NCBI GenBank assembly: GCA_002840355.1
Contig: PHAL01000017.1
Span: 1-62,449 of the forward strand
Direction: 5' to 3'
Origin: Elusimicrobia bacterium HGW-Elusimicrobia-3
Lineage (GTDB): Bacteria > Elusimicrobiota > Elusimicrobia > Elusimicrobiales > UBA9959
Length of the DNA: 62,449 nucleotides
In this document: positions 14,206 to 16,449 of the stretch, in pieces
How the letters are laid out: every line of letters begins with the position of its first letter
Numbering within the stretch: position 1 is the first letter of the stretch
Position numbers and translations under genes: made by a program
The notes under the pieces: generated by a model
Databases searched by the model: none
Seen by the model: the letters and a program-made list of their open reading frames with translations, nothing else
Told to the model about the DNA's origin: nothing

Positions 14206-16449
14206 TTATACCCCCGTGAAGCTGTCCATGCGCAGCTTCATCAGCTCTTCGGTCAGGTTGGCGGCCCATTTGTAGATGTTGTTCTCGTGTATCTCCTGGC
14301 GCATGCGCGTCATGCGCTCCTCCACCTCGGCCTTGGGCATGACGAGCGAGTAGTAGATCGCGTCCGCCATCTGCTCGATGTCGTAGGGGTTCACTATCAG
14401 CGCGTCCTTGAGGTCGCGGGAGGCGCCGGCGAAGCGGCTGAGGACCAGCACGCCGCGGTGGTCGTCGCTGGCCGCCACGAACTCCTTGGCCACCAGGTTC
14501 ATGCCGTCGTGCAGCGACGTGACCAGGCAGGTGTCGGCGATCTTGTAGTACTTGGTGATCTCCTTGTGGGCGTGGTGCTTCTCGAGGAAGACTATCGCCT
14601 TCCAGTCCTTGGCTTTGAAGCGCCAGTTGATGCGGTCCACTTCGGCGTGCAGTTCGGCGAGGAAGCGGTGGTACTGCGGGATATGCGTGCGGCTGGGCGC
14701 GCCGATCTGGATGAACGTGAACTTCTTTACGTAGTCGGGGTATTTCTCCAGGAAGCGCTCCACCGCCTTGACGCGCTCCAGCATGCCCTTGGTGTAGTCT
14801 ATGCGGTCCACGCCCACGGCGATCTTTTCCGCCTTTATGCCGAGGTCCTTGAGCACCGAGGCCTGGTCGGGCTTCTCGGGCAGCTGCCTGGCCTCCCGGT
14901 CCGGCTGCGTGAAGTCCACGCTGATCGGGAACGGCTTGACCAGCGTGATATGCCCCTCCTTCTGCACGGAGAAATGCTCCCAGTCGATGCGCGACTCTAT
15001 GGTGCGGTCTACGGTGTCGAGGAAGTTGTTGCAGTAGAACTGCGTCTGGAAGCCTATCAGGTCCGCGCCGAGCAGGCCCATCACCAGCTCCTTCTGCCAG
15101 GGGCAGATGCCGAACGTTTCGGGGTTGGGCCACGGGATATGCCAGAATACGGCCACGCGGGCGTCGGGGCGCGTCGCCTTGATCATGGCGGGCAGCAGGG
15201 TGAAGTGGTAGTCCTGTATCAGGATAGCCGGTTCCTTTACGCCTTCTATCTCCTCGAGCACGGTGTCGCAGAACTTCTTGTTGACGGCGTAGTAGCGCTC
15301 CCAGTCCTCCTTGCGGAAGATGGGGCGGATGTGGGCTATGTGGCAGAGCGGCCAGATGCCCTCGTTGGAGAAGCCGTAATAGTAGCCGTCCTCCTCCTCC
15401 TTGGTCAGCGCTATACGGCGCAGCGTGTAGGCCGGCTCCTCCGGCGGCACTTTAATGCGGTTGTGTTCGTCGGTGACTTCGAAGTCGGCGTCGCCGCTGC
15501 CGTGCGCTATCCACGTGCCCCCGGCCGCCCGGAGTATCGGGTCCAGCGCCGTCACCAGGCCGCCGGCCGGCACGATGGCCTTGATCTCCTTGCCCTCGCG
15601 CAGGTGCATGTACGGCTCGCGGTTGGAGACCACGAACAGCGGGCGCCCCTCCATCTTGATCTTTATGAGTTCCTTCAGCCGCTCCGGGGTCCACAGGGAT
15701 TCGCCCTCCTGCCGCAGGCGCGCCTCCTTCTGGGCGGCGTTCCTGGCCGCCTGCAGGTTCTTGGCCAGGGTGGTGGCCTCTTTGGCTATCGGCGCGAAGA
15801 TATCCCCCCTCAGCGGCGGGGTCTGGCCGTGTTCCTCGCCGATACGCAGCTTCTTCATCCAGTCCGCCATCTGGGCTATGGGGTCTACGAGGCTCCAGCG
15901 CACTATAAGCAGCGTCACCAGCGAGATCAGTATCATCTGGGCCAGCAGGCGCAGCAGCGTGCGTTTCCAGATGCGGAACAGCTCGTAGTCTATGTGCGAG
16001 ACGTTGGTCAGCAGGACCGCCCTGGCTTTTTGCGAGGAGCCGAACGGCAGCTCCGCCGGGTAGAGGAAGATCCTGCGGCTGGCGAAGAGGAATTCCCCCT
16101 CCCGTCCGGCGGCCAGCAGCGCGGCTATCTGCTTCTCCCGGCCGGCCAGTTCCGGGGCTATGGCCGACGAGGCCGCCAGCAGCGAGCCGTCCTCGGCGTA
16201 GACCGCCAGCCCCTCCAGGTGCCGCTGGTTCTGCAGCCGGTCGGCCAGTTTCTGCAGGCCGGGCAGGTCGGCCGCCTCCAGGCTGTGGCGGGCGCCTTCC
16301 TTGAGGGTTTCGGCCACCAGGGCCGACTGGGCCTTTACCTCGTCGTAAAGCTTGATCTTCTCCTGCCGCACCTGGTACCAGGCCGAGAGCAGCGCCACGG
16401 CCACCACCACCACGATCAGGGACAGTATAAGGCGTAGGGTTATTTTCAT
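14206..16449 (-). CDS. otsA: Membrane-anchored OtsA: sensor-HAMP-trehalose-6-phosphate synthase fusion
   Basis: 747 residues, far longer than the usual ~450-480. TM1 (about 7-24), an extracytoplasmic domain (25-163), TM2 (164-184), a HAMP-like linker (about 185-240, with LVDPIAQM) and a GT20 domain (268-740). The GT20 part keeps SNREP, AGGL, WHIPWP, the phosphate/UDP-binding Arg549 and Lys554 in VDRIDYTKG, and [11 protein letters not shown]; the usual HDYHL is QDYHF at 412-416. It should condense UDP- (or other NDP-) glucose with glucose-6-phosphate at the inner membrane face, possibly gated by an outside signal, as in receptor enzymes. A related glucosylglycerol-phosphate-type acceptor specificity cannot be excluded. 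An AAGGA ribosome site precedes the ATG. Confidence 0.88.

Follow-up and report, generated by a model that had tools for sequence, protein, structure and literature searches.

Bacterial transmembrane receptors drive kinases, cyclases or chemotaxis, and we know of none that drives an enzyme making a protective metabolite. A minus-strand gene of the window (the whole 62,449-nucleotide stretch of DNA that was analysed, from Elusimicrobia bacterium HGW-Elusimicrobia-3), whose product joins a receptor-like N-terminal half to a trehalose-6-phosphate synthase (TPS), raises the question of whether an outside signal could set the activity of such an enzyme directly. Positions 14209–16449 of the minus strand translate to 747 residues from an ATG start, with an AAGGA motif 5′ of the ATG and a stop codon at the end. 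The plus-strand reading of 14206–16449 implied by the coordinates was rejected, as its translation is not the synthase protein. The only match to the synthase within its own genome is the synthase gene itself. It lies in a row of minus-strand genes joined by overlaps or short gaps, in the order Na+/Ca2+ exchanger, receptor-TPS, OtsB, sensor histidine kinase (HK), DUF5752 and TreT-like, with 21 nucleotides between the end of the exchanger gene and the start of the synthase. The features are as follows.

14206–16449, minus strand: receptor-type TPS gene, sCache-HAMP-GT20, 747 amino acids
16372–16440, minus strand: first transmembrane helix (TM1), residues ~4–26 (hydropathy, models)
15970–16365, minus strand: periplasmic single-Cache/PAS-like sensor domain, residues 29–160 (Foldseek, Pfam in relatives, dN/dS)
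15898–15966, minus strand: second transmembrane helix (TM2), residues ~162–184, unbroken into HAMP helix AS1 (hydropathy, models)
15733–15897, minus strand: HAMP domain, residues 185–239 (Pfam in relatives, profile–profile comparison, heptads)
15694–15732, minus strand: coiled-coil linker of fixed length, residues 240–252 (alignment spacing)
14209–15693, minus strand: GT20 catalytic part, residues 253–747, starting at W253-T254 (Pfam, residues, structure)
13428–14204, minus strand: OtsB-type trehalose-6-phosphate phosphatase, next operon gene (PF02358, 4.1e-35; TIGR00685 above cut-off)
12010–13431, minus strand: sensor HK, found in only some relatives' operons
11339–12013, minus strand: DUF5752 protein (PF19027, 4.9e-57; MscS-fused in other phyla)
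10126–11346, minus strand: TreT-like trehalose synthase (GT4), last operon gene (PF21269, 7.9e-52)
16471–17532, minus strand: Na+/Ca2+ exchanger gene (PF01699, 1.1e-25)

A promoter and terminator scan gave nothing above chance. PADLOC returned no match and a defence role was rejected, while no plasmid record covers 80% of the synthase query, the matches involving the GT20 part only. The plus strand of the window carries a LuxR-type response regulator (9341–10012), a possible partner of the operon HK, and a multi-pass membrane protein (17680–18888) that resembles a cation/proton antiporter, has no Pfam match and has relatives adjoining receptor-TPS genes in several Elusimicrobiota.

The first-pass annotation had described a GT20 synthase with its ligand-binding arginine and lysine, and this description holds. 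GT20 (PF00982) matches residues 272–736 with E = 5.6e-118 (395 bits; cut-off 32.5), and R549 and K554 are invariant in 47 relatives, together with N276-R277, D413, H437, R587, D648 and E656. The donor and acceptor motifs (the Arg of VSNR, an Asp, a His, the Arg and Lys of DRxDYxK, a further Arg, and the Asp and Glu of DGMNLVAKE) are present and align with those of solved TPS structures. The catalytic part of the AlphaFold model gave TM-scores of 0.85–0.91 by target length against OtsA and Tps1 (PDB codes 1gz5, 5jio and 5hut), with which it shares the catalytic fold and the ligand-binding residues at about 30–33% identity in structural alignments; the known OtsA and Tps1 enzymes have no transmembrane receptor half, whereas the synthase here has about 250 extra N-terminal residues. 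Its closest NCBIfam equivalogs are of the OtsA type. The score for the OtsA equivalog TIGR02400 is below the cut-off (437 against 565 bits), so the protein is placed in a divergent TPS clade and filed under GT20, not as an OtsA equivalog; the glucosylglycerol-phosphate synthase equivalog also falls below its cut-off (291 against 569). Judged from its sequence, the catalytic half is a GT20 TPS with all key residues, and trehalose-6-phosphate (T6P) is its predicted product.

For comparison, 79 loci with relatives of the synthase were taken from named genomes and 47 full-length proteins were aligned (L068, which has an internal stop, was omitted, and the N-terminus of L078 was masked). Hydropathy places hydrophobic stretches at residues 1–29 and 163–192, corresponding to two transmembrane helices that flank an extracytoplasmic sensor, and in the models a helix spanning residues 2–58 continues from TM1 into the outside domain. 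The modelled sensor combines a long N-terminal helix with an antiparallel sheet of the Cache/PAS type. In Pfam, sCache_3 is matched by 17 of the 47 relatives at E up to 0.1 (best 6.1e-5) and dCache_3 by six (best 5.3e-8). A Foldseek search with the predicted N-terminal structure matched an integrative/full-length model of the WalK receptor (TMq 0.72 over 253 columns), as well as WalK sensor crystal structures and the sensor domains of PhoR, CitA and DctB. The receptor layout proposed at first sight (TM, outside domain, TM, HAMP) is thus borne out by hydropathy, models and Foldseek, and by the HAMP profile tests that follow.

The HAMP domain, originally assigned to residues 185–240, stands at the family level but not for the window sequence taken alone, for which Pfam reported no HAMP and profile methods were needed. 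PF00672 is matched by 11 of the 47 relatives, with E no higher than 0.1 (best 6.9e-5). When a family profile of the N-terminal 268 residues was compared using hhalign with a HAMP profile built from 14 proteins encoded in this genome whose HAMP match exceeds the Pfam cut-off, family columns 164–238 aligned with a score of 51.7 (Prob 94.9), whereas eight column shuffles gave 8.7–14.2 and reversing the profile gave 17.7; with the TM part cut from the HAMP profile the score was still 40.5, and none of 30 shuffles exceeded 14.1. The a/d positions of AS1 (187, 191, 194, 198 and 201) and AS2 (218, 221, 225, 228, 232, 235 and 239) are 100% or nearly 100% hydrophobic and P190 and G204 are near-invariant, while a DExG-like motif (G-E-L-G) is kept in Omnitrophota members and does not occur in the window sequence. 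On the basis of the HAMP profile and heptad tests and the WalK-like predicted structure, the N-terminal half is identified as a Cache-HAMP receptor. HisKA and HATPase_c are absent from the synthase protein according to Pfam, and it is therefore not a sensor HK. The evidence thus supports the architecture, the HAMP domain and a GT20 site that is intact; at the family level it indicates neither an N-terminal part that lacks HAMP and serves only as an anchor nor an inactive GT20 domain.

The same receptor module is found on a histidine kinase from Rokubacteria, which matches synthase residues 2–278 (E = 2e-6) and has a clear Pfam HAMP (6e-13). The operon HK also has a receptor half that resembles the synthase's along its whole length, though distantly and weakly (hhalign Prob 78, 234 columns). 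Sensor histidine kinases of the WalK/PhoR/CitA type share the TM-sensor-TM-HAMP layout and the predicted fold, with a homologous module present on a kinase; their output is a kinase, whereas the output here is a biosynthetic glycosyltransferase. Stand-alone TM-Cache-TM modules that resemble the TPS receptor and carry no enzyme were also seen (L152:3057–3647 and L153:2734–3409), in genomes that have no full-length receptor-TPS match.

Soluble relatives start with Met-Trp-Thr-Lys exactly at W253-T254 of the synthase, from which it follows that the receptor was added at the point where a soluble enzyme naturally begins. In a catalytic-domain tree of 72 rows, the receptor forms and their sensor-less derivatives constitute one clade (support 98/85), the soluble clade is its sister (99/90) and bifunctional TPS-TPP enzymes fall outside, a topology most simply explained by one fusion and two later losses. 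A census of the architecture across phyla, which had been put forward as a check on the initial reading, covered a sample of 954 genomes in six phyla and recovered full-length receptor-TPS (matches that begin no later than about residue 10 and extend to at least about 730) in ~150 of them: 23 of 199 in Elusimicrobiota, 37 of 145 in Omnitrophota, 12 of 118 in the Nitrospirota sample, 16 of 199 in Acidobacteriota, 14 of 198 in the phylum of L079 and 49 of 95 in the Rokubacteria phylum. The named loci add Zixibacteria, Krumholzibacteriia and Desantisbacteria to this range. The combination is kept across many uncultured phyla, and nearly all of the sequences compared come from metagenome assemblies.

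Whether the receptor half passes a signal on may be judged from how it has been conserved. The distances W161–P190 (30 residues), P190–G204 (15) and W253–N276 (24) are the same in all 47 relatives, and E224–W253 is 30 residues in 45 and 29 in two; variation in length occurs in the HAMP connector and the periplasmic domain. The full-length AlphaFold model is weakest within the linker, at residues 242–250 (pLDDT under 50). Among 11 close pairs, dN/dS is 0.05–0.34 for the sensor, 0.03–0.15 for TM2-HAMP-linker and 0.03–0.16 for GT20, the sensor evolving more quickly than GT20 in almost every pair. A constant helix path and purifying selection would be expected of a working relay, whereas a passive tether should tolerate insertions and deletions. 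We therefore consider it probable that the synthase is a membrane receptor with a TPS output, in which the sensor would control enzyme activity. We infer this control from the constant helix length between TM2 and the catalytic part, the purifying selection on the sensor, the homologous HK receptors and the retention of one ancient fusion across phyla.

The protein would act as a dimer or, as OtsA enzymes are tetramers, possibly as a dimer of dimers. A cue sensed by the Cache domain, or arriving through the state of the membrane, would change the packing of the HAMP helices, and this repacking would shift the helix that enters the catalytic GT20 N-domain, turning T6P synthesis up or down within seconds and without new gene expression. 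OtsB would then convert T6P to trehalose, and the operon HK, where present, might act as a slower, transcriptional arm. Osmotic or ionic stress would be the most likely class of cue, given that the membrane proteins repeatedly associated with the operon are mechanosensitive channels and cation exchangers; a small ligand would fit the Cache fold equally well. For osmolarity, the cue suggested in the first-pass annotation, the support is contextual and comes from the MscS and Na+/Ca2+ exchanger neighbours, the MscS-DUF5752 fusions and an independent fusion of TPS to an Na+/H+ exchanger.

It seems unlikely that the receptor-like half is an anchor only, keeping the synthase at the membrane close to transport or envelope synthesis without relaying a signal, although several observations agree with this reading. 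In two lineages (L144/L146/L162 and L086) the sensor is mostly lost and TM2-HAMP-linker-GT20 is kept, so that the sensor is dispensable in some paralogues; soluble sister enzymes occupy the same operon slot; and the sensor is the fastest-evolving part. However, even the sensor-less forms retain HAMP and linker, a full Cache and HAMP are under purifying selection in at least nine named phyla and the fixed length of the helix path is not what a passive tether would lead one to expect. The sensor-less variants L144, L146, L162 and L086 provide natural material for a test of control.

OtsB, DUF5752 and TreT recur beside receptor-TPS across phyla, and in relatives the slot before DUF5752-TreT is filled instead by a soluble TPS or a bifunctional TPS-TPP. 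Na+/Ca2+ exchangers are recurrent neighbours in other phyla too, with eight of the diverse loci carrying one. MscS channels accompany the operon in several phyla. In five loci a channel of the MscS type, encoded within or next to the operon, is fused to DUF5752 (L061:5353–6726, L065:5281–6654, L069:11024–12427, L074:11032–12435 and L088:3409–4782), and separate MscS genes adjoin or lie near receptor-TPS in L061, L085, L087, L088 and L102 (the separate channel of L061 and the fusion of L088 were identified by blast only). Through these fusions an operon partner has therefore been joined to a mechanosensitive channel, which points to DUF5752 as a partner domain in the osmotic response. The DUF5752 protein of the window (11339–12013) and its relatives look tandemly duplicated, the two halves matching each other weakly in blast of the L107, L089, L060 and L072 copies.

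Such neighbours could also be read as the receiving end of a signal that travels the other way, with the synthase half reading internal glucose-6-phosphate, UDP-glucose or T6P and the membrane half signalling on, for example to the operon HK or to MscS-DUF5752, so that the protein would be an inward metabolic sensor or a scaffold. HAMP domains normally relay signals inward, the synthase is the only output module attached and the HK is missing from most receptor-TPS operons, all of which make this reading improbable. It draws on the distantly similar receptor half of the operon HK and on the MscS-DUF5752 fusions, and it has precedents in the OtsA of Arthrobacter, an osmotic sensor and scaffold (PMC5685639), and in the GT-activated TPSP complex of Thermoproteus tenax (PMC3634074). 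It is very doubtful that the catalytic half makes another product such as glucosylglycerol phosphate, a reading consistent with scores below both equivalog cut-offs but opposed by TPS being the best equivalogs and structures, by a next gene that scores above cut-off as a T6P phosphatase and by the bifunctional TPS-TPP enzymes that fill the same slot before DUF5752-TreT.

A second kind of membrane fusion was found in the Acidobacteriota sample, where an Na+/H+ exchanger (PF00999) is fused directly to GT20 TPS in proteins of about 900 residues, with no TrkA domain between them (L168, L169, L170, L171, L172, L174, L175 and L176; five confirmed by Pfam and three by sequence). These proteins form their own clade outside the soluble-plus-receptor group, and this TPS branch has therefore been joined to membrane modules twice. 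Returning to the receptor with a TPS output, we put forward more tentatively, as something that may or may not hold, the wider proposal that these form a widespread class of receptor enzymes coupling an outside signal directly to protective-solute synthesis, and that they are central to a trehalose complex associated with the membrane (receptor-TPS, OtsB, DUF5752, TreT and often MscS), with the TPS-Na+/H+ exchanger and DUF5752-channel fusions as independent inventions.

HAMP receptors with enzymatic outputs are represented by adenylate and diguanylate cyclases, in which HAMP directly precedes the enzyme domain, as it does here. The cyclases make second messengers, whereas the enzyme here produces a metabolite that serves as the precursor of a protective solute. 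The msc-gt-tpsp operon of T. tenax, like the present one, encodes trehalose enzymes together with a glycosyltransferase and a mechanosensitive channel, and is an experimental precedent for a partner that controls activity, in that case by forming a complex with the enzyme; its synthase is, however, a bifunctional TPSP with no fused receptor, and no DUF5752 is reported (PMC3634074). No description of a HAMP-GT20 protein or a membrane-receptor TPS was found in the open-licence PMC papers searched, although domain databases may list the architecture uncommented, and none of DUF5752 was found in the same papers. Each half on its own belongs to a known family, while their combination, its distribution and the logic of the operon appear to be undescribed.

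If the proposed control is real, a single protein would provide an osmotic or stress response without phosphorylation, a second messenger or transcription, across many uncultured phyla. With the receptor-TPS, a link between sensing and metabolism can be put to a direct test, and the synthase offers a ready output domain for designed receptors. The MscS fusions and the trehalose operon give DUF5752 its first functional setting.

Some candidate architectures were rejected. An apparent receptor-TPS-TPP fusion in L093, obtained by tblastn extension, contains an internal stop, and on high-G+C contigs the long open frames that lie 5′ of soluble and exchanger forms are mostly non-coding extensions. 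Nitrospirota ORFs of 743–802 amino acids that match from about residue 255 have no receptor half; they carry a C-terminal extension of about 250 residues and look like bifunctional TPS-TPP enzymes. In Omnitrophota, GT20 domains also occur inside giant open frames, of at least 7499 codons in G246:C30 (L158) and at least 2747 codons in G227:C101 (L159).
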